A stretch of 10,089 bases of DNA from positions 1 through 10,089 of the forward strand of contig JAQTNZ010000048.1 of NCBI GenBank assembly GCA_028713595.1, written 5' to 3'. The position numbers were made by a program, and so were the translations under genes. Shown piece after piece: positions 467 to 10,089 of the stretch (position 1 is its first letter; every line of letters begins with the position of its first letter). Source of the stretch: Methylovulum sp. GTDB taxonomy: Bacteria > Pseudomonadota > Gammaproteobacteria > Methylococcales > Methylomonadaceae. The notes under the pieces are model-generated. The model was not told the DNA's origin and searched no databases. It worked only from the letters and a program-made list of their open reading frames with translations.

Positions 467-1424
467 ATGAAAACCTATCAGCACATCGAGAAAAATTGGA
501 ACATCGAGGCCATTGTCTCGGAACTGCGCCTCTTGCGTAACCAAGCCTTGGAAAGTCGGCAACGCAAAGGCCGACCGCCCAAATTGCCCTCACGCAAAGC
601 CCTAGTGGGTGTCTTGGAAAACCTATCGGCGGCACTGTTCCCCAACCGCTTAGGTTCTGGCGAACTCTCCGATGAGAGCATCGATTATTTTGTCGGCCAT
701 ACCCTAGATGTCGCCTTGCAATCGCTGTTTGAGCAACTGCGGCGCGAATGCCGGTTCAAAGCCGAGCAGCAAGGGCTGTTCGATATTGATTGCAGCCAAC
801 ATGCCGTCATTATCAACCGTGAGTTTGCCGCGCAATTGCCCACCATCCGCGCCTTGCTGGATAGCGACCTGATCGCCGCCTACGAGGGCGATCCGGCGGC
901 GACCAGCTTGGACGAGGTGCTGGTCTGTTATCCGGGCATGACCGCGATCATTTATCACCGCAGCCCATGCCCTGTATCTGAGCGGCTCGCCGCTGGTCGC
1001 CCGCATGATTGCCGAAATCGCCCATTCGGCGACTGGCATCGACATCCACCCGGGCGCGGACATCGGCGCCAGCTTTTTCATCGACCACGGCACTGGCGTG
1101 GTGATTGGCGAAACGGCGGTCATCGGCCAGCATGTCCGCGTGTATCAGGCCGTGACCTTAGGGGCCAAGCGTTTCCCCAAAGATGAAGATGGCGCGTTGG
1201 TCAAAGGCAACGCCCGCCACCCGATAGTCGAAGACGATGTCGTCATCTACGCGGGCGCGACTATTTTGGGGCGTATCACCATCGGCAAAGGCTCTTCCGT
1301 TGGCGGCAACGTCTGGCTAACCCACAGCGTCGCGCCCGGCAGTGTCATTACCCAGTCACAGGCAAAAAACGAACCGCCACCCCAGCAGGCATTGTTAGCG
1401 GCGGCAGTTGCGGCAACGCATTGA
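467..1424 (+). pseudogene. epsC: Serine O-acetyltransferase (EpsC/SrpH type), frameshifted
   Basis: The intact family makes O-acetylserine from serine and acetyl-CoA, the first step of cysteine synthesis in the cytoplasm. The start at 467 follows a strong GGAGGA (451-456). The first frame reads an alpha-helical N-terminal domain and reaches the motif [10 protein letters not shown] at about 956-961, where family similarity stops. It then runs out of frame to 1186. The family sequence resumes in the next frame at 960 ([16 protein letters not shown]) and continues through the left-handed beta-helix hexapeptide domain, with [21 protein letters not shown] and [15 protein letters not shown], to 1424. 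Restoring two bases (CGC-GC-AGCC) would give about 319 residues, the expected length. The presumed catalytic His and Asp both lie after the break. It is either a real mutation, leaving at most a short product restarted at ATG 1005, or a sequencing error. No slippery site for programmed frameshifting is seen. Its place before the encapsulin gene matches known family 2A operons. Confidence 0.85.
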
Positions 1425-1499
1425 CACGGGCGTAATCACTTACCCTTTAAAAAATAAAAAAAACCATTTTGTACCCAACACCACCACAGAGGAAAAACC

Positions 1500-2417
1500 A
1501 TGTCCGATATTCATGAAGCCCATACCGCATTAAGCGATGTCGCCGCGCGTACCCTAGCGAACGCCACCAAAACCGTCCCTATGATGTCCACCATCACGCC
1601 ACGATGGTTAGTGCATTTGCTGCAATGGGTTCCGGTTGAGGCGGGTATTTACCGCGTCAACAAAGTCAAAAATGAAACCGGTATCGCGGTCGATTGCTCC
1701 AATTTAGACGAGCGCGTCTTGCCACAAACCTTTGTCGATTATGAGGCCTGGGGCCGCGAGTACCGCTTAGGGGCGGTCAATAGCGTCGTGGACATCCACA
1801 CCCGCGTCTCCGATTTGTACAGCAGCCCGCATAACCAAATCCAAGAACAGTTGCGCCTGACCATAGAAACCATCAAAGAGCGGCAAGAAAGCGAATTGAT
1901 TAACAATAGCGAATACGGCTTGCTGAATAATGTCGCCGATAGCCATAAGGTGCAAACCCGTAACGGCTCACCGACACCCGATGATTTGGATGAGTTGCTG
2001 ACCAAGGTCTGGAAACATCCGGCGTTTTTCTTGGCGCATCCGCAGGCCATCGCCGCCTTTGGCCGCGAGTGTACCCGCCGGGGCGTACCACCACCAACCG
2101 TGACTTTGTTTGGTTCGCCGTTCCTAACTTGGCGCGGCGTGCCGCTGATCCCGTCCGACAAGGTCAGGATCGTCAACGGCAAAACCAATATCTTGCTGCT
2201 GCGCACCGGGGAAAGCCGCCAAGGCGTGGTGGGGCTGTATCAGCCTAATCTGAGCGGCGAGCAAAGCATGGGGCTATCGGTGCGGTTTATGGGCATTAAC
2301 CATAAGGCGATTGCCTCTTACCTGATTTCCCTTTACTGCACCTTGGCGGTGTTGACCGACGATGCCTTGGCGGTGCTTGAGAATGTCGCCGTGGACAACT
2401 ACTATGACTACAAGTGA
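1500..2417 (+). CDS. srpI: Family 2A encapsulin shell protein (SrpI type)
   Basis: This 305-residue protein matches the family 2A encapsulins, HK97-fold shell proteins that self-assemble into an icosahedral nanocompartment in the cytoplasm. The family includes SrpI of Synechococcus and major membrane protein I of Mycobacterium leprae. Recognisable stretches include TITPRWLVHLLQWVPVEAG (about residues 31-49), the segment around residues 100-130 with HNQIQEQLRLTIE, and the AFGRECTRRGVPPPTVTLFG region with SPFLTWRGVPLIPSDKVRI (about residues 185-225). There is no added cyclic-nucleotide-binding domain, which separates 2A from 2B. A good AGAGGA (1488-1493) precedes ATG 1500. The C-terminus (DNYYDYK) overlaps the start of the cargo gene by 14 nt. 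The acetyltransferase upstream and the desulfurase downstream form the classic neighbourhood. In cyanobacteria this shell gene responds to sulfur starvation; regulation here is not visible. Confidence 0.93.
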   Translation: MSDIHEAHTALSDVAARTLANATKTVPMMSTITPRWLVHLLQWVPVEAGIYRVNKVKNETGIAVDCSNLDERVLPQTFVDYEAWGREYRLGAVNSVVDIHTRVSDLYSSPHNQIQEQLRLTIETIKERQESELINNSEYGLLNNVADSHKVQTRNGSPTPDDLDELLTKVWKHPAFFLAHPQAIAAFGRECTRRGVPPPTVTLFGSPFLTWRGVPLIPSDKVRIVNGKTNILLLRTGESRQGVVGLYQPNLSGEQSMGLSVRFMGINHKAIASYLISLYCTLAVLTDDALAVLENVAVDNYYDYK

Positions 2418-4053
2418 TTTTAAGCCACAGCTAGACGCTGTGCCGGACAGCACCAACAGCTTTGCCGCCGATTTTTCGCTGGCGCAATTGGAGCGGCTGG
2501 CCAACGAGCTGTTTTCGGCCTTGCCTAACGCGGGTAACGATGTGGTCGGCTTTGCCCACCAACAACTGGACGCACACGCCAGCGCACACCCTAAAGCCGT
2601 AACCTGCGCCAACCGCTTGGCGGCGTTGGCCAGCCAAGCCGAACAGGTGGCGACAGCGGCCTTACCAACGGGCGGGGTGGACTTGTCGCAACTGCTGGCG
2701 GGCTTTGCCCAGCCCACCGTGCAGTTACCGACACCCAGCCTAGCGGCCCCGTCATTTTATTTCCTTGACGAACTGGCCCCGTTCGCACAGGCCTTACAGC
2801 CCACATCGGCAATCCCCAGCCACCCGCCCGCGTTTGATGTCGGGGCGGTGCGCCGTGATTTTCCGATCTTGCAAGAGCGCGTCAATGGGCGGCCTTTGAT
2901 CTGGTTGGACAATGCCGCCACGACCCAAAAGCCGCAAACCGTCATTGATCGGTTGGCGTACTTTTACCGGCACGAAAATTCCAATATCCACCGTGCCGCG
3001 CATGAACTGGCGGCCCGTGCCACCGACGCTTACGAAGATGCCCTCACTCAGGTCGCCCACTTTCTCGGTGCGCCCTCCAGTTCGGAGATTGTCTTTGTGC
3101 GCGGGGCCACCGAGGGCATTAATCTGGTCGCGCAATCGTGGGGTCGCCAGCATATCGGCAAAGAGGATGAAATTGTCATCACTTGGCTGGAACATCACGC
3201 CAATATTGTGCCTTGGCAGCAATTATGCGCGGCGACCGGGGCTAAATTGCGCGTGGCCCCCGTTGATGACAACGGCCAAGTGGTGCTGGAAGCGTATGAG
3301 AAACTGCTCAACTCCCGCACCCGCCTGGTCGCCTTTATGCAAGTGTCCAATGCTTTGGGTACGGTGACACCGGCGCGGGAGATGGTGGCGCTGGCGCATC
3401 GCCACGGGGCGCGGGTGCTGGTGGACGGGGCGCAATCGGTGTCACATTTGCGCGTTGACGTTAAGGCCTTGGATTGTGATTGGTTCGTGTTTTCCGGGCA
3501 TAAAATCTTCGGGCCCACGGGTATTGGCGTTGTTTATGGCAAACGTGACTTGCTCGATGCCACCCAGCCTTGGCAAGGCGGCGGCAACATGATTGAAGAC
3601 GTGACCTTTGAACATACCCGCTACCATCAAGCCCCAGCACGGTTTGAGGCGGGTACGGGCAATATCGCCGATGCCGTGGGTTTAGGCGCGGCGTTGGCAT
3701 ACATAGAAAAACTGGGTATAGACAACATTAACCGCTACGAGCATGAGCTGCTGGTGTATGCCAACCAACACCTAAGCACGATACCCGGCTTGCGCCTAAT
3801 CGGCACCGCCCCCGACAAAGCCAGCGTGTTGTCTTTTGTCCTCAGCGGCTTTACCACCGAAGCGGTCGGTGTCGCCCTCAATAAGGAAGGCATCGCGGTG
3901 CGCTCCGGCCATCACTGCGCCCAACCGATCTTGCGCCGCTTTGGCGTGGAAAGCACGGTACGGCCTTCGCTGGCGTTTTATAACACCCGCGAAGAAATTG
4001 ACGTGCTGGTGGCGACCTTACGGCAACTGCAACGTGGTGGCACAGGACGTTAA
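2404..4053 (+). CDS. Cysteine desulfurase, family 2A encapsulin cargo
   Basis: This is a PLP-dependent enzyme that converts cysteine to alanine and leaves a persulfide on its active-site Cys. Starting at ATG 2404 gives 549 residues. About residues 144-549 are a complete SufS-type (class II) desulfurase: FDVGAVRRDFPIL, WLDNAATTQKP, EHH at 263-265, VDGAQ with D341, PLP-binding lysine K367 in SGHK, catalytic C505 in RSGHHCAQP, and R520 in RPSLAFYNT. The first 143 or so residues are rich in Ala, Pro and Gln and are probably mostly disordered. They hold LAQLERLANELF (26-37) and a hydrophobic YFLDELAPFAQAL stretch (119-131). This fits the N-terminal cargo-loading domain that targets such enzymes into family 2A shells. 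ATG 2404 overlaps the shell stop codon by 14 nt. In-frame ATGs at 2362 and 2383 lie further inside the shell gene and would add 14 or 7 unlikely residues. No clear ribosome binding site is seen, which suits translational coupling. Confidence 0.93.
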   Translation: MTTSDFKPQLDAVPDSTNSFAADFSLAQLERLANELFSALPNAGNDVVGFAHQQLDAHASAHPKAVTCANRLAALASQAEQVATAALPTGGVDLSQLLAGFAQPTVQLPTPSLAAPSFYFLDELAPFAQALQPTSAIPSHPPAFDVGAVRRDFPILQERVNGRPLIWLDNAATTQKPQTVIDRLAYFYRHENSNIHRAAHELAARATDAYEDALTQVAHFLGAPSSSEIVFVRGATEGINLVAQSWGRQHIGKEDEIVITWLEHHANIVPWQQLCAATGAKLRVAPVDDNGQVVLEAYEKLLNSRTRLVAFMQVSNALGTVTPAREMVALAHRHGARVLVDGAQSVSHLRVDVKALDCDWFVFSGHKIFGPTGIGVVYGKRDLLDATQPWQGGGNMIEDVTFEHTRYHQAPARFEAGTGNIADAVGLGAALAYIEKLGIDNINRYEHELLVYANQHLSTIPGLRLIGTAPDKASVLSFVLSGFTTEAVGVALNKEGIAVRSGHHCAQPILRRFGVESTVRPSLAFYNTREEIDVLVATLRQLQRGGTGR

Positions 4054-4071: not shown

Positions 4072-4093
4072 GCTTGCCCCGTCAGGGGCAAGC
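4072..4093 (+). terminator. GC-rich hairpin after the encapsulin operon
   Basis: A perfect 9-bp stem (GCTTGCCCC / GGGGCAAGC) closes a GTCA loop 18 nt after the desulfurase stop. No T-run follows (taacacaata), so it is not a canonical intrinsic terminator. It could be a weak terminator, an mRNA 3'-end protector, or an attenuator ahead of the response regulator gene. Confidence 0.45.
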
Positions 4094-4138
4094 TAACACA
4101 ATAGCGGGAATCCATAGCCTTTGCCCAACCTTGTGAGC

Positions 4139-4795
4139 ATGACCCCCATCATCCGTATCTTATTAGTGGACGACCATGCCATCGTCCGTGCCGGCTATCG
4201 CACCTTGCTGGCGAAACAAAGCGGTCTGCAAGTCGTGGCCGAAGCCGCCGATGGCAACCAAGCCTACCAACTCTTTAAAGACCACCAGCCCGATGTGGTC
4301 ATCACCGATCTTTCCCTGCCCGGTATCAGCGGCTTGGAAGTGATTGCCCGGATCAAACAGCGCGACCCCAAAGCGAAAATACTGGTGTTCAGTATGCACC
4401 TAGAGCCTAGCTTTGCCGTACAGGCCACCCGTGCCGGTGCCTTGGGCTATATCACCAAAAGCAGCCCGCCGGAGCTGTTGCTGCGAGCCATCCACGAAGT
4501 CCATGCCGGTCGCCTCAGCTTAAGCCCCGACATTGCCCAAGCTTTGGCCTTGGCGCAACTGGGCAACGAGGGCATGGCGCTGGATACCTTGACGGTGCGC
4601 GAATTTGAAATCCTACGCCTGTTGGTCGAAGGCCACAGCAGCGAAACCATCGCCCAGAGCCTCAACATCAGCGCCAAAACCGTCTGCAACAGCCATTATC
4701 TGATTAAGCGCAAGCTGGGCGTGACCAGTGACATAGAACTGACCCGACTGGCGATACGCTTAAATATCGTCAGCTTGTTGGCGGTGGGCAATTAA
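4139..4795 (+). CDS. NarL/FixJ-family response regulator
   Basis: This is a two-component transcription factor: a receiver domain, phosphorylated by a sensor kinase, controls DNA binding by a LuxR-type helix-turn-helix. With the start at ATG 4139 it has 218 residues. Receiver domain: acidic pair D11/D12 (ILLVDDHAIVRAG), phosphoacceptor D57 in VVITDLSLPGISG, S85, and K107 in GYITKSS. The GerE/LuxR domain spans about residues 148-207, with LTVREFEILRLLVEGHSSETIA and then LNISAKTV. The layout resembles GacA/UvrY or NarL, but the target is not evident. TTG 4121 and GTG 4133 are in-frame alternatives; ATG 4139 places the receiver at the usual distance from the N-terminus. No histidine kinase lies in the window, so it is an orphan here. 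It lies 85 nt after the desulfurase and could be co-transcribed if the hairpin at 4072 is leaky. Its 3' end overlaps the minus-strand paiB-like gene by 26 nt. Confidence 0.9.
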   Translation: MTPIIRILLVDDHAIVRAGYRTLLAKQSGLQVVAEAADGNQAYQLFKDHQPDVVITDLSLPGISGLEVIARIKQRDPKAKILVFSMHLEPSFAVQATRAGALGYITKSSPPELLLRAIHEVHAGRLSLSPDIAQALALAQLGNEGMALDTLTVREFEILRLLVEGHSSETIAQSLNISAKTVCNSHYLIKRKLGVTSDIELTRLAIRLNIVSLLAVGN

Positions 4796-5414: not shown

Positions 5415-5504
5415 AAAGGCTTAAGCTTACCGAAGTTAAAAAACTCGTATCATCATGTTTTTCCGGTTAGGCCGCAAGCAAACGGACTCATTTTTAAAAA
5501 ATCC

Positions 5505-5522
5505 TTAACTTAATGGCAATAA
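5505..5522 (+). repeat. Short dispersed repeat, copy B
   Basis: The 18-mer ttaacttaatggcaataa is identical to 214-231 and is preceded, as there, by an A-rich tract. It ends exactly where the TA-flanked MITE begins, so the MITE may have inserted at the edge of an older copy of this repeat. Confidence 0.6.
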
Positions 5523-5524
5523 TA

Positions 5525-5749
5525 AGTAGGTGTGCATAAATTTTTTAAAATTTTTAGGAAGAAGCCGTCATTCCGGCAGGGATTGCCGGAATCCAGATTA
5601 CAGGGATGTACACCCGTACAGATTGCCCTCCATGGCGCATGGATTCCGGCAATCCCTGCCGGAATGACGATGCTTCTTTAATTTTGCAGTAAAAATACAG
5701 GGCGTTAGTCCTGCAAAAAATTTTGTTAAAAAAATTTTGCACACCTACT
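5525..5749. mobile_element. MITE-like element with TA target duplication
   Basis: The 225-bp non-coding element has terminal inverted repeats that begin AGTAGGTGTGCA on the left and end TGCACACCTACT on the right. AT-rich tracts (ataaattttttaaaattttt and its counterpart) extend the similarity inwards. TA dinucleotides flank both ends (5523-5524 and 5750-5751), the target duplication expected of IS630/Tc1-mariner transposases. There is no coding capacity, so a transposase elsewhere would have to move it. The centre holds a long perfect palindrome (5566-5669). The element and its flanks account for most of the gene-free stretch 5415-5818; the remaining 67 bp to the next gene show no clear signal. 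Confidence 0.75.
5566..5669. repeat. 30-bp perfect inverted repeat inside the MITE
   Basis: Arms 5566-5595 and 5640-5669 are exact reverse complements (cgtcattccggcagggattg at the left start), and pairing continues outward (gaagaagc) past a 2-nt gap. Within each arm TTCCGGCA and TGCCGGAA-like halves add further self-complementarity. The 44-nt centre has its own small stem, TGTAC/GTACA (5607-5620). The sequence is of the 'GTCATTCCGGCAGGGATTGCC' type common as dispersed intergenic palindromes in Proteobacteria; I recall this class but cannot search for it. Confidence 0.85.
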
Positions 5750-5818
5750 TAGACTGACCCTGAGAATTTATGAGAAGATGCTTTCTTATCCATCTTTCCA
5801 AAACCCACCACCAAGACC

Positions 5819-6619
5819 ATGCCCCTAACCCCCACCACCTTAATCAAAGCCCGTTTGACAGAGCTGGCCGCCCAGCATCACATCAAAATTATCTATGCCT
5901 GTGAATCGGGCAGCCGGGCTTGGGGTTTCCCGTCACCGGACAGCGATTATGATGTGCGCTTTATCTATGCCCGGCCTTGGGCTGGGTATTTGTCCTTGGC
6001 GGAAGGGCGTGATGTCATTGATTTGCCGCTGGAAGACAGCGCGGCGGGGGTGCTGGACATAGGCGGCTGGGACGTGCGCAAAACCTTGCGGCTGGCGGGC
6101 AAGTCAAATCCGGTGATTTGGGAATGGCTGCAATCGCCGATGGTATACCAGCCTTTGGCAGCGGCAGAGCTACAGGCCTTAAACGCCCGCTTGGCGCCGT
6201 TTTATTCGCCGATTGCCGCTTGCCACCATTACCTGTCCTTATGCCGTGGCACTATGACGCGGGAGTTACAGGATTCCACGGTCAAGATCAAAAAGTATTT
6301 CTATATGCTCCGGCCTTTGCTGGCCGCCGCCTGGATTGAACGCCACCACAGCGTCCCACCTATCGGCTTGGCCCCGCTGTTGGCCTTGCTGGACGGGCAA
6401 ACCCAGATCACCGCCAGCATTGACGAATTGCTGGCCCGCAAACAACACACCGATGAAGCCATCCCCATCCCACGCCTGGCCGTGCTGGACGGCTTTTTGG
6501 TCAGCGAACTCACCCGTTTACAGGCGGCGGCCAAAACATTGCCCACGGCCTACGGTGATCCGGCGCAGCTGGATAGCCTGTTCAGGCAGTTGATTGGCGC
6601 ACCCGACCCCGCCTTATGA
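5819..6619 (+). CDS. RlaP-family nucleotidyltransferase, short form
   Basis: This 266-residue protein belongs to the DNA polymerase beta-type nucleotidyltransferase superfamily, RlaP family (PF10127). The N-terminal catalytic motif GSRAWGFPSPDSDYDVRFIY (31-50) has the G-S pair and the metal-binding D43 and D45. Family features follow: VLDIGGWDVRKTLRLAGKSN (78-97), VIWEWLQSPMVY (99-110) and KIKKYFYMLRPLLAAAWIE (156-174). RlaP proteins have been linked by gene neighbourhood to RNA ligases and RNA repair, but their reaction is not well established. The start at 5819 has only a weak purine-rich stretch (ccaagacc) before it. The stop codon overlaps the start of a second, related gene (ATGA), so the two are almost certainly co-expressed. 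Confidence 0.87.
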   Translation: MPLTPTTLIKARLTELAAQHHIKIIYACESGSRAWGFPSPDSDYDVRFIYARPWAGYLSLAEGRDVIDLPLEDSAAGVLDIGGWDVRKTLRLAGKSNPVIWEWLQSPMVYQPLAAAELQALNARLAPFYSPIAACHHYLSLCRGTMTRELQDSTVKIKKYFYMLRPLLAAAWIERHHSVPPIGLAPLLALLDGQTQITASIDELLARKQHTDEAIPIPRLAVLDGFLVSELTRLQAAAKTLPTAYGDPAQLDSLFRQLIGAPDPAL

Positions 6620-7746
6620 GCTTAAGCATCGCCGACCTTAAACGACAAAACCTCATTTTGTTGGAAGCGTTAAGCGGGAGCCGCGCCTACAACTTGGCGA
6701 CCCCGCAATCGGACACCGACTTGCGCGGGGTCTTTATCCTGCCGCCAGAGCGGTATTTCGGCTTTACTTATACCGAACAGGTCTGTAGCGAGCGTAATGA
6801 CCACGTCTATTACGAACTTGGCAAATACCTGAAATTGCTGGCTAAGAACAACCCTTCCAGCATCGAACTGCTGTTTGCCCCCAAGGCGACCCTTCTCTAC
6901 CAGCACCCCTTGTTGGCGAGAATCCGCCCGGAGCCGGTGGTCTCGCGCCTATGCCGGGACAGCTTTGCCGGTTATGCCTTAAGCCAAGTCAACCGCGCCA
7001 AAGGCTTGAACAAAAAAATCTTCAATCCAGTCACAGGCACCATCCCACGCCCGATAGAGTGTTGCCATATCATTGAAGGCGATCAAAGTATTGCCGCCGA
7101 GTCTTGGCTTAACGCCCATAACATGCAGGCCGGACGCTGCGGCCTCAGTGCCTTGGCGCATGTCCGCGACGGTTACGCGCTGTTTTATGCCGATGATTAT
7201 GAGGGGGATGATCGGTGTTTTAATGGCCTCTTCCGCACCGATGCCCAGCAAGCCCCCGCCGCGCCCTCACAAGACCTTTGCCTGTCTTCCATCCCCAAAG
7301 GCATGAAGCCTAGGGCGTGGCTGGTGTTCAATAAAGACGGTTTTGCCCGCCGTTTGCGTGACTATCACGACTATCGGCTCTGGGAGCAAGAGCGCAACCA
7401 AGACCGTTACCAAGGCACCTTGGCGCATGGCGGCGGCTATGATGCCAAAAACATGATGCACACCTTCCGGCTGTTGCGCATGGCTAAAGAAATCGCCAGC
7501 ACCGGTCAGCCATTGGTGCATCGCCCTGACCGTGACGAATTGCTGGCAATCAAATCCGGCCAATTCGCCTACGAGGATTTATTGGCCCAAGCCGCCCAAG
7601 AACTGCTGGAAATAGACCAACATTTTGCCACCAGCACCTTGCCTGACGCGCCAGACACCCAGCAAATCGAGCGTTGGGCGGTGGAGATACGCACCGCGTG
7701 GTACAGGGGGGCTTATGGGGCCGACTCTTCATTGCCCTTAAGTTAA
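6616..7746 (+). CDS. RlaP-family nucleotidyltransferase, long form
   Basis: This 376-residue second nucleotidyltransferase overlaps the first gene by 4 nt. Its motif GSRAYNLATPQSDTDLRGVF (21-40) carries G21-S22 and metal-binding D33 and D35, followed by HVYYELGKYLKLLAKNNPSS (63-82) and IELLFAP, which hold a likely third acidic residue (E67). The C-terminal two thirds, with AKGLNKKIFNP, a helical region and YDAKNMMHTFRLLRMAKEI (about 275-293), matches the longer RlaP subfamily. It is only distantly similar to its upstream partner outside the catalytic motif, so the pair is two subfamilies rather than a recent duplication. Its last codons and TAA stop lie inside the AT-rich repeat copy at 7731-7796, so the native C-terminus may have been altered by that repeat. 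Confidence 0.87.
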   Translation: MSLSIADLKRQNLILLEALSGSRAYNLATPQSDTDLRGVFILPPERYFGFTYTEQVCSERNDHVYYELGKYLKLLAKNNPSSIELLFAPKATLLYQHPLLARIRPEPVVSRLCRDSFAGYALSQVNRAKGLNKKIFNPVTGTIPRPIECCHIIEGDQSIAAESWLNAHNMQAGRCGLSALAHVRDGYALFYADDYEGDDRCFNGLFRTDAQQAPAAPSQDLCLSSIPKGMKPRAWLVFNKDGFARRLRDYHDYRLWEQERNQDRYQGTLAHGGGYDAKNMMHTFRLLRMAKEIASTGQPLVHRPDRDELLAIKSGQFAYEDLLAQAAQELLEIDQHFATSTLPDAPDTQQIERWAVEIRTAWYRGAYGADSSLPLS

Positions 7747-7796
7747 TATTTTTTATGTTTATTATCAATAATATACAATTATAGCAGGTCGGGTTA
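7731..7796 (-). repeat. AT-rich repeat, copy C (inverted relative to copy A)
   Basis: Read on the minus strand this matches copy A at 165-231: 36 of 39 positions over the part 7731-7769, including an exact 20-mer (7750-7769), then looser similarity up to taacccgac at 7788-7796. Only half a REP arm is kept and the palindrome partner is missing. The low-numbered end reaches into the 3' end of the upstream nucleotidyltransferase gene. Confidence 0.72.
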
Positions 7797-7959: not shown

Positions 7960-8451
7960 ATGAAACCGATCATCAGACCCCTTTCAGTTAAAATCCGCGA
8001 CAAGCACACCGCTGTTTCGGGGCGCATGGCCTTTGATGCCAACCAAGTCTGGAACGCGGCCAATGTCGGTTCCACCGAGTTGTCGTGGGCCGCCATCCCT
8101 GAAGTCGGTTATATGGGCTGTGGCACGTCCGCGTTTGGGCTGATGAAAGAATTGAAAGGCATCCGCAAGGAACGGGGCATGGTCATTGACTCCACCGCCG
8201 CCCATACCAAGGCCCGGAAAGCAGTTCAAGAAAAACAAGCGGTGCTGGCGGTGTTCGGGCGGGGCCAGGAACGCTGCACCACCCAAACGTGTTCGTGCTG
8301 CGGCTGCATAAGCCTCGGTAGCCCGAAAGATAGGGCAGATTTGCGGATAAGGGCATGGACGCGTGCCGGGCATGATCGCGGCATCAATGCGGCCAAGGAC
8401 ATTCCCGCGCTTGGGCATAAGCACCTAGCAGCAGGAATCCCTGTCCTTTAG
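7960..8451 (+). pseudogene. tnpB: Decayed IS200/IS605-type TnpB (OrfB) remnant
   Basis: A continuous frame of 163 codons joins the two ends of a TnpB protein, which is normally about 350-400 residues. The start (MKPIIRPLSVKIRDKH, then FDANQVWNAAN) is TnpB-like. The end carries the zinc-ribbon and last RuvC region (TTQTCSCCGCIS, then ADLRIRAW and GHDRGINAAKDIPALGH). The middle, with most of the RuvC nuclease, is missing; the junction is near 8270. An extra A near 8218-8220 shifts the frame: in the other frame the bases read KQFKKNKRCWRCSGGAR, a TnpB-like continuation. The second zinc CxxC pair is gone (TRAG) and the Asp expected in HDRD is Gly. It cannot be an active RNA-guided nuclease. No tnpA is nearby. 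Confidence 0.83.
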
Positions 8452-8468: not shown

Positions 8469-9362
8469 ATGGGCAGACGTTCTTCCCTTAACGGCTTCAA
8501 GCACCTGCTTGCCTTAATGCGCCTTGTTTACCGCCACCCCACGTTATTGCTGCTGGGCTTGCTGATCGGGGTGGGCGATTATGTTTATGAGCTAAAAATA
8601 GCCCGCCCTGCCCTGCTGTATCAAGGCGAACCCCAGGCCTTGGCTTGGCAAAACAGCGACACTTGGTTTCGGGTGCTGCGCAATCATGGCTTTATCTTGG
8701 GCTATTCAGATGTGCGCGGTAATCCTCTCTGGGTGGAATATGCCCTGACCCCAGTTCCAGACCATGCGCCCCCATTGAAACGCCCTAGCCGTTTTAGCAC
8801 GGACTGGCGCAGCTTTAACCGCTTAAGCCATGACAGTTATCAAAAAAGCGGCTATGACCGTGGGCATCTGGCCCCCAATTACGCGATAAGCCATTTGTAT
8901 GGCAAATGGGGGCAAGCGGACAGTTTTTTGATGACCAATATCACGCCGCAAAAACCCCACTTAAACCAAAAGGTCTGGGAACGCTTGGAAGAGGTGGAAA
9001 TTGATACCTTTGCACCAACGTTCGGCAAAATCTGGGTGCTGACCGGGCCGGTGTTTAGCGGTTCGGTGGAGCGGCTAAGTTCTGATTGGAAGGTGGAGAT
9101 ACCCGACGCTTTTTTTAAGATTTATATCACCGCCGCCGAACCGCCTGATAAACCGCTGGCACTGGCGTTCTTAATCCCACAAACGGTAAAAGGCAACGAA
9201 CCGCTGGCACAATTTGTCACCCGCATTGACGCGATAGAAGCACAAACGGGGCTGGATTTTTTTGCCGACCTGGATGATAGGATTGAAAATGCTGTGGAGG
9301 CCAGCATGGACGGGCAACCGTGGCATTTGCAGGAAGTCAGCCAACGCCCTGCGCGGTACTGA
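8469..9362 (+). CDS. Membrane-anchored DNA/RNA non-specific endonuclease
   Basis: This 297-residue member of the beta-beta-alpha-metal NUC family (PF01223, Serratia nuclease/EndoG type) hydrolyses DNA and RNA with a His base and one metal ion. The core shows RPSRFSTDWR, then SGYDRGHLAPNYA with the catalytic D130-R131-G132-H133, MTNITPQKPHLNQKVWERLE (155-174) with N166 as likely metal ligand and E174 downstream, and the strand IWVLTGPVFSG (188-198). Before the core lies a basic N-terminus and one hydrophobic segment (about 25-39, TLLLLGLLIGVGDYV), which looks like a signal anchor placing the nuclease in the periplasm or on the outer face of the inner membrane. No immunity protein or toxin-delivery domain is seen next to it. 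The start follows GGGGAGG, apparently within the end of a mobile element. It converges with the RTX gene, 4 nt apart. Confidence 0.9.
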   Translation: MGRRSSLNGFKHLLALMRLVYRHPTLLLLGLLIGVGDYVYELKIARPALLYQGEPQALAWQNSDTWFRVLRNHGFILGYSDVRGNPLWVEYALTPVPDHAPPLKRPSRFSTDWRSFNRLSHDSYQKSGYDRGHLAPNYAISHLYGKWGQADSFLMTNITPQKPHLNQKVWERLEEVEIDTFAPTFGKIWVLTGPVFSGSVERLSSDWKVEIPDAFFKIYITAAEPPDKPLALAFLIPQTVKGNEPLAQFVTRIDAIEAQTGLDFFADLDDRIENAVEASMDGQPWHLQEVSQRPARY

Positions 9363-9366
9363 ACAT

Positions 9367-10089
9367 TCAGATCACCAGAAAATCCGCCGCCGTCACAGCC
9401 AATCCCTTACCGATGAGGGCAACCAGTACAAAAGCGCTCGAACCGCTACCATCAACATCGTAGAACAAGCCGCCGGACAGCGTGTTGTACAAAATATGGT
9501 CATTGCTGTCTTCGACATCACCTGCGCCCATAAGCTTAAACGCGCTGGCCGCTAAGCTGCCGATAGAGGACAATTGCGTAAAAACAGTATGATCCAATTC
9601 GATAGTATCATCGGTGACGGAAAAATCGGTGATGATGTCTCTGTTATCAAGACCCAATGCCGCAGCAAAAACAAAACTGTCTTGCCCTGCCCCGCCTAGC
9701 AACACATCTTGGCCTAATCCACCGTTCAGCACATCATTGCCTGTACCGCCCCATAAGATATTATTGACGGCATTGCCTGTTAAGCTGTCGTTAAAATTGC
9801 TGCCGTTGATATTTTCGATGGTATTCAGGGTGTCAATGCCCGCCCCGCCGGTGTTTTGCGCTACGGTCAGCGTCAGATTAACCGTCACCCCCACCGTGAC
9901 CGTATGATAGTGGGCGGTATCCACGCCACCACCGCCAACCAGCAGATCATTGCCGGCACCCCCATTCAAATTGTCAGTGCCGTCACCTCCCTGTAACGTA
10001 TCGTTGCCATCTCCACCTGTTAAATTGTCGTTACCGTTGCCACCATTAAGGACATCATCCCCATCCCCACCAGCCAAGCCATCATCACC
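9367..10089 (-). CDS. RTX calcium-binding exoprotein, C-terminal part (cut by window)
   Basis: The frame stays open to the window edge, so at least 240 C-terminal residues of a larger protein are present; the upstream end and the function-bearing domain are outside. It begins with tandem GGxGxDxLx nonapeptides (GGDGDDVLN, GGNGNDNLT, GGDGNDTLQ, GGDGTDNLN, GGAGNDLLV). A beta-rich spacer with NTIENINGSNFNDSLTG follows, then a second block (GGTGNDVLN, GGLGQDVLL, GGAGQDSFVF). These fold into calcium-binding parallel beta-rolls outside the cell. The tail (DIITDFSVTDDTIELDHTVF to AVTAADFLVI) is the usual C-terminal region carrying the uncleaved type I secretion signal. No secretion ABC transporter or membrane fusion protein is in the window. 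Possible whole-protein roles include a protease, adhesin, lipase or S-layer protein; this cannot be told from the C-terminus. Confidence 0.93.
   Translation of the reverse strand, partial: GDDGLAGGDGDDVLNGGNGNDNLTGGDGNDTLQGGDGTDNLNGGAGNDLLVGGGGVDTAHYHTVTVGVTVNLTLTVAQNTGGAGIDTLNTIENINGSNFNDSLTGNAVNNILWGGTGNDVLNGGLGQDVLLGGAGQDSFVFAAALGLDNRDIITDFSVTDDTIELDHTVFTQLSSIGSLAASAFKLMGAGDVEDSNDHILYNTLSGGLFYDVDGSGSSAFVLVALIGKGLAVTAADFLVI

Follow-up and report, generated by a model that had tools for sequence, protein, structure and literature searches.

The window analysed here is the whole of a 10,089-base contig (JAQTNZ010000048.1, handled as C48) from a Methylovulum sp. genome, and it carries, after its first 466 bases, a three-gene operon encoding a serine O-acetyltransferase of the SrpH/EpsC type, a SrpI-type encapsulin shell and a cysteine desulfurase (CyD) with an N-terminal extension (Table 1). 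The host is a fragmented metagenome-assembled genome (MAG) of 3.26 Mb in 587 contigs, 76.6% complete. The locus is almost certainly a family 2A encapsulin operon of ordinary make-up in a Methylovulum-like methanotroph, working by the mechanism outlined below. The first-pass annotation had already named a family 2A operon with a cysteine desulfurase cargo and an SrpH-type acetyltransferase, and this identification stands: the open reading frames (ORFs) are as it described them, and shell and cargo both score over the cut-offs of their families. The system itself is a known one, and no unusual feature of this copy survives comparison with its relatives.

Table 1. Coordinates of the operon, its sub-features and the downstream regulator in the window.
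Feature	Position	Strand	Basis
srpH/epsC-type serine O-acetyltransferase, split by a frame change at ~955-985	467..1424	+	profiles, identity to Synechococcus elongatus EpsC
Family 2A encapsulin shell (SrpI type), 305 aa	1500..2417	+	encap_f2a profile, identity to SrpI
14-base overlap of cargo start and shell stop	2404..2417	+	same position in related loci
Family 2A cargo cysteine desulfurase (CyD), 549 aa	2404..4053	+	f2_encap_cargo1 profile
Loading motif 1, SLAQLERLANELFSALP, residues 25-41	2476..2526	+	sequence against published consensus LARLANEFFS
Loading motif 2, SFYFLDELA, residues 117-125	2752..2778	+	sequence against published consensus AASPYYFLDG
Response regulator, receiver and LuxR-type DNA-binding domains	4121-4795	+	Pfam

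Proteins of the window were searched against Pfam and NCBIfam profiles with curated cut-offs. A match of the shell protein to encapsulin profiles had been named in advance as the check on its identity, and the protein passes well over the line for family 2A, scoring 534.7 bits against encap_f2a (cut-off 380), far above chance, and 342.5 bits against the Pfam SrpI-like domain. It is 77.4% identical to SrpI of S. elongatus and aligns with the solved shells 6x8m and 8t6r over residues 8-305 and 5-304, respectively. F263 and Y274 are the counterparts of two SrpI residues, F262 and Y273, that are close to the cargo density in the SrpI structure (PMC8049743). Among the best 80 of 251 shell relatives, which were kept as loci L002-L081 and to which (or to a stated subset) the counts of related loci below refer, the nearest are the shells of Methylovulum miyakonense (strain HT12) and M. 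psychrotolerans, at 94% identity, on which ground the host is taken as Methylovulum-like. These 80 loci are recorded nearly all as Methylococcales, Methylophilaceae or unnamed proteobacterial MAGs.

Because the protein is so close to SrpI, whose structure is solved, it probably has an HK97 fold. Two results qualify the assignment to a family 2A shell of this fold. The profile for 2B shells also scores over its own cut-off (418.7 bits against 400), lower than the 2A profile, and its best match spans only profile positions 207-449 of 450, leaving the N-terminal part uncovered. An AlphaFold2 model, built from a shallow input of 25 sequences that are 82-94% identical, has a mean predicted local distance difference test (pLDDT) score of 33.5 and does not reproduce the HK97 fold, a result that speaks neither for the fold nor against it. 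An internal domain that binds cyclic nucleotide monophosphates distinguishes family 2B from 2A shells (PMC8346489). No match to such a domain was found in the 305-residue protein, in which SrpI-like is the sole Pfam domain.

The neighbouring gene had been read as a desulfurase with an N-terminal extension, and this too is confirmed by a score of 879.1 bits against NCBIfam f2_encap_cargo1 (cut-off 800), far above chance, together with both motifs and a low-pLDDT N-terminal domain. Its longest ORF opens at 2362; the ATG at 2404 is taken as the start. Residues 1 to about 148 form the loading domain and the remainder is a pyridoxal phosphate-dependent enzyme of the SufS type, in which K367 (within SGHK) and C505 (within GHHCAQP) are identical in 29/29 aligned cargo sequences picked from 120 listed. 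We take these residues to be the catalytic lysine and cysteine of SufS. Both loading motifs for which consensuses are given in SrpI cargo (PMC8049743) are present. Patterns for them, picked after the sequences had been inspected, occur in 60/76 (motif 1) and 75/76 (motif 2) loading domains. A structure model of the cargo, with a mean pLDDT of 67.0, suggests that the loading domain is flexible or disordered: every one of the 14 ten-residue blocks up to residue 140 lies at pLDDT 31-56, against 31 of the 41 blocks beyond residue 140 at 70 or more. Two close cargo proteins from Methylovulum sp. (P0004 and P0005) are already named family 2A cargo in a source.

The best-described counterpart, the SrpI/CyD system of S. 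elongatus PCC 7942 (family 2A; PDB 6X8M), has the same gene order, epsC-srpI-cyd, on a plasmid record, and its cargo likewise bears an N-terminal loading domain with an FYF[LI]DE motif. It differs in having cysK before the operon and a rhodanese gene after it, an unbroken epsC, a gap of 234 bases between shell and cargo genes where the window has an overlap, and a loading domain that ends at residue 226 and not, as in the window, at 149. Records of Acinetobacter baumannii encode a shell that is 73.2% identical to that of the window; PDB 8T6R is presumably the A. baumannii shell, and the particle of this species reportedly stores sulfur, in work by Benisch et al. from 2024. Family 2A loci of Methylococcales and Methylophilaceae share the three-gene order of the window in their large majority. 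With this operon a known nanocompartment family gains an example from a methanotroph; a literature search covering part of the literature recognised no paper on encapsulins in methanotrophs.

By analogy with these systems, the shell protein would assemble into a closed particle of HK97 type, as shown for SrpI, and the flexible N-terminal domain with its two motifs would draw the desulfurase inside, as shown for the S. elongatus homologue. The enclosed enzyme would take sulfur from cysteine, and the operon would supply or store that sulfur when sulfate is scarce. The upstream acetyltransferase would feed cysteine synthesis; it is interrupted in this assembly, and another CysE could cover for it. 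Assembly, loading and sulfur content of the particle are predictions made from sequence.

The overlap of shell and cargo genes had been singled out as a special feature of this version of the system. It is present, yet it is the norm of the lineage: the cargo ATG stands at the same overlap position in 72/76 related loci that have a cargo match, and the frame from this start is open through to the enzyme in 71/76, the exceptions being L014, L032, L042, L060 and L063. The overlap as a peculiarity of the window is rejected on these counts; the 14-base overlap is a trait of the lineage. This fixed overlap plausibly serves translational coupling, through which the cargo would be made in step with the shell.

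Loading domains of the relatives vary widely, from 120 to 320 residues across 75 loci and the window. When 77 domains (the 75 loci, the window and S. elongatus) were each scored against 60 shuffles, a test that is independent of the motif patterns, internal repeats reached z of at least 4 in 37 (e.g., L054, L062, L066), mostly sharing, by eye, a GLPGEAELQKLF-like core (GLPGEAELQKL-like). Many Methylococcales and Methylophilaceae relatives have longer, repeat-bearing loading domains, unlike the window, whose domain stays below the limit (z 1.8, reached by 4/60 shuffles). The S. elongatus domain is also below it (z 3.8, reached by 0/60 shuffles). Such repeats could mean multivalent binding to the shell. 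A broader proposal, put forward tentatively and rather unlikely as it stands, is that the loading domain of methylotroph 2A systems grows by duplicating a shell-targeting motif, with a GLPGEAELQKLF core akin to motif 1, that the number of repeats tunes loading, that the window cargo is of low valency, and that the operon belongs to a sulfate-limitation regulon with the sulfate ATP-binding cassette (ABC) transporter.

The gene neighbourhoods bear on the sulfur role. Flanks reaching at most 6 kb to either side, often shorter, were compared at 45% identity and 60% coverage, each family being checked on one representative. Genes for the sulfate ABC transporter, CysK or a CysB-like regulator, the LysR representative of which scores below the CysB model cut-offs, lie in the flanks of 62/80 related loci, and the transporter itself in 46/80. 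Of the 45 loci that span 12.8 kb or more, 35 have one of these genes and 27 the transporter. Since CysW occurs once each in 19 of the 20 genomes of the genus comparison, which includes that of the window (G007 has none), the expected rate of such proximity by chance, over 13 kb in a genome of 3-5 Mb, should be well under 1%, uncorrected for kinship among the loci. In these related methylotroph loci, then, the operon often sits near genes for sulfate uptake and cysteine synthesis. The S. elongatus system is upregulated under sulfate starvation (PMC8049743). From the neighbourhoods and S. elongatus together, a role in sulfur storage or supply under sulfate scarcity is most likely.

Several points count against that role. 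Sulfate genes flank just two of the seven loci nearest by shell identity (L005 and L012), or three of eight if L008 is counted, the transporter of M. miyakonense lies ~0.66 Mb away from the shell gene, and the window itself, which begins so shortly before the operon, holds no sulfate genes. The sulfate transporter of the host genome is on contig C29, which ends ~50 bases after cysA, and in the sister locus L005 the acetyltransferase is the gene directly after cysA. Contig C29 may possibly precede the window directly, an order that L005 would match; no exact overlap of 15 or more bases was found between the end of C29 and the start of the window. Rhodanese is a frequent partner of such systems (PMC8346489). 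A search with the S. elongatus protein, under the identity and coverage thresholds given above, found no rhodanese gene near the operon in the 80 loci (0/80). Culturable methanotrophs would be suitable for testing the role of the compartment in sulfur limitation. As a separate observation, the vicinity of the operon holds genes for EAL-domain proteins in 33/80 loci by loose clustering and in 15/80 by strict matching, and in several Methylophilaceae they stand between the sulfate transporter genes.

The upstream acetyltransferase had been described as broken, and a frame change is indeed real in this assembly. Its ORF lies in two pieces in different frames, an N-terminal one at 467-1186 and a C-terminal one, with the hexapeptide part and an internal ATG at 1005, at 1005-1424. 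The latter matches EpsC and cysE profiles, its EpsC score of 114.7 bits staying below the cut-off of 150; the N-terminal piece has no match in Pfam or NCBIfam, and with the frame broken no complete ORF scores over the family cut-off. Identity to S. elongatus EpsC is 44% for the N-terminal and 73% for the C-terminal piece. Relative to 8/8 aligned relatives the window is two bases short near position 962. The gene is in frame in all seven loci nearest by shell identity and in 67/72 related loci that have both halves; of the five flagged, two (L011, L063) show frame changes, L033 stops prematurely, and L019 and L064 seem merely to overrun their natural stop. Eight further loci are without a full pair of halves. 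Three of them (L028, L053, L068) are truncated less than 0.5 kb from the shell; in the other five (L050, L067, L069, L077, L078) no acetyltransferase match was found upstream of the shell despite 3.4-6.0 kb of sequence there.

Selection on the two halves was gauged by the ratio of nonsynonymous to synonymous substitution rates (dN/dS), a test limited by dS values near or above 1, which would keep a recent relaxation hidden. For the N-terminal half the window gives 0.087-0.112 against four relatives, which among themselves give 0.068-0.142. For the C-terminal half the corresponding ranges are 0.021-0.093 and 0.030-0.048, and a single value, that of the window with L003 (0.093), exceeds the range of the relatives, the other three being 0.021-0.037. 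Shell and cargo of the window are slightly raised as well: the shell gives 0.042-0.054 against relatives and 0.022-0.036 among them, and the cargo enzyme 0.060-0.126 and 0.039-0.066, so the acetyltransferase is not an outlier. Both of its halves are under strong purifying selection with no clear relaxation and, because they are, the break is either recent or artefactual. It is indistinguishable here from an assembly error.

There is about an even chance that the organism has an intact enzyme and that the frame change arose as an error of assembly or consensus. The strength of selection on both halves and the continuous frame of the 67 other loci point this way, as do the frame changes of L011 and L063, the latter with its cargo gene in pieces too, as draft errors would produce. 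The loss of two bases speaks against an error of this kind; in short-read assemblies single-base errors are commoner than two-base shortenings. That same loss, set against all eight aligned relatives, would fit a true inactivation in the lineage, after which the compartment would work without its own SrpH by way of another CysE of the genome. Such an enzyme scores over the cut-off on contig C303, a second match at the edge of contig C438 falling slightly below it, and the five loci with shell and cargo and no acetyltransferase match indicate that the pair can occur without it. The C-terminal comparison with L003, one of four, leans in the same direction. Low dN/dS in both halves, with no sign of long decay, the fragmentation of the MAG, and the absence of a second assembly of the species among the shell or cargo relatives listed argue the other way, and true inactivation is quite possible, if on balance somewhat doubtful. 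It is very unlikely that the C-terminal piece is translated alone from its ATG as a shortened acetyltransferase of 139 residues: it retains the hexapeptide domain, but the N-terminal domain would be missing and the relatives keep one continuous frame. A programmed frameshift was also considered and is unsupported, given that continuous frame in 67/72 relatives and no slippery run seen at the break.

Downstream of the cargo gene lies a response regulator, nearest to NarL/GacA-type models but below the cut-off of all of them, which had been named among the features that set this version of the system apart. That the regulator controls the operon is extremely improbable. It is on the same strand, and its first possible start is 67 bases past the cargo gene; a match to it was found downstream of the operon in none of the 80 loci, 66 of which extend 1 kb or more beyond the cargo match (absent in 66/66), and the only match among the 80 is weak (31.7%) and upstream, in L006. 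Its orthologues, at 75-85% identity, are unlinked to the shell gene, lying ~0.9 Mb from it in G001 and on other contigs in G003, G010 and G012. Across the 20 genus genomes the two genes also occur separately: five have regulator and shell, five the regulator (at least 60% identity) without shell, four the shell without regulator, and six neither. For want of linkage in the 80 loci and 20 genomes, the regulator is rejected as a component of the system; it is a bystander. Break, overlap and regulator are accordingly not worth following as special features.

A 9-pair hairpin between cargo gene and regulator (4072-4093) is terminator-like on the minus strand, and such sites are not clearly more frequent in the window than in shuffled sequence (11 against 7.5, standard deviation 2.8). 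Promoter-like sites number 3, where shuffles give 3.3. When the window was aligned with six relatives, no clear block of a conserved promoter motif was seen upstream of the operon, and no structured RNA was found in the window at gathering thresholds.

The genes beyond the regulator (FMN-binding, two RlaP, a TnpB remnant and a nuclease) have no match in the flanks of the 80 loci. The RlaP-type nucleotidyltransferase genes, of the RNA repair pathway DNA polymerase beta family, are neighbours at 5819-7746. The possible TnpB-like remnant at 7960-8451 has as its sole match a weak Cas12f1-like TNB below cut-off, a DNA/RNA non-specific endonuclease gene follows at 8469-9362, and 9367-10089 on the minus strand appears to encode the C-terminus of a protein that is truncated where the contig stops and bears glycine-aspartate-rich repeats of calcium-binding type. 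Positions 90-235 hold a hairpin-bearing repeat with 61 matches listed in the host genome (its own copy and both strands of single copies counted) and a partial inverted copy at 7731-7796. An element at 5490-5765 that resembles a miniature inverted-repeat transposable element carries inverted repeats at its termini and, inside, a perfect one of 30 bases; 25 matches to the element, mostly partial and including itself, are listed in the genome. Outside the 80 loci, Methylosinus trichosporium OB3b (L112), an alphaproteobacterial methanotroph, carries shell and cargo genes on plasmid pOB3b1, followed by an Rrf2 regulator and surrounded by genes for TonB receptors and an iron ABC permease.

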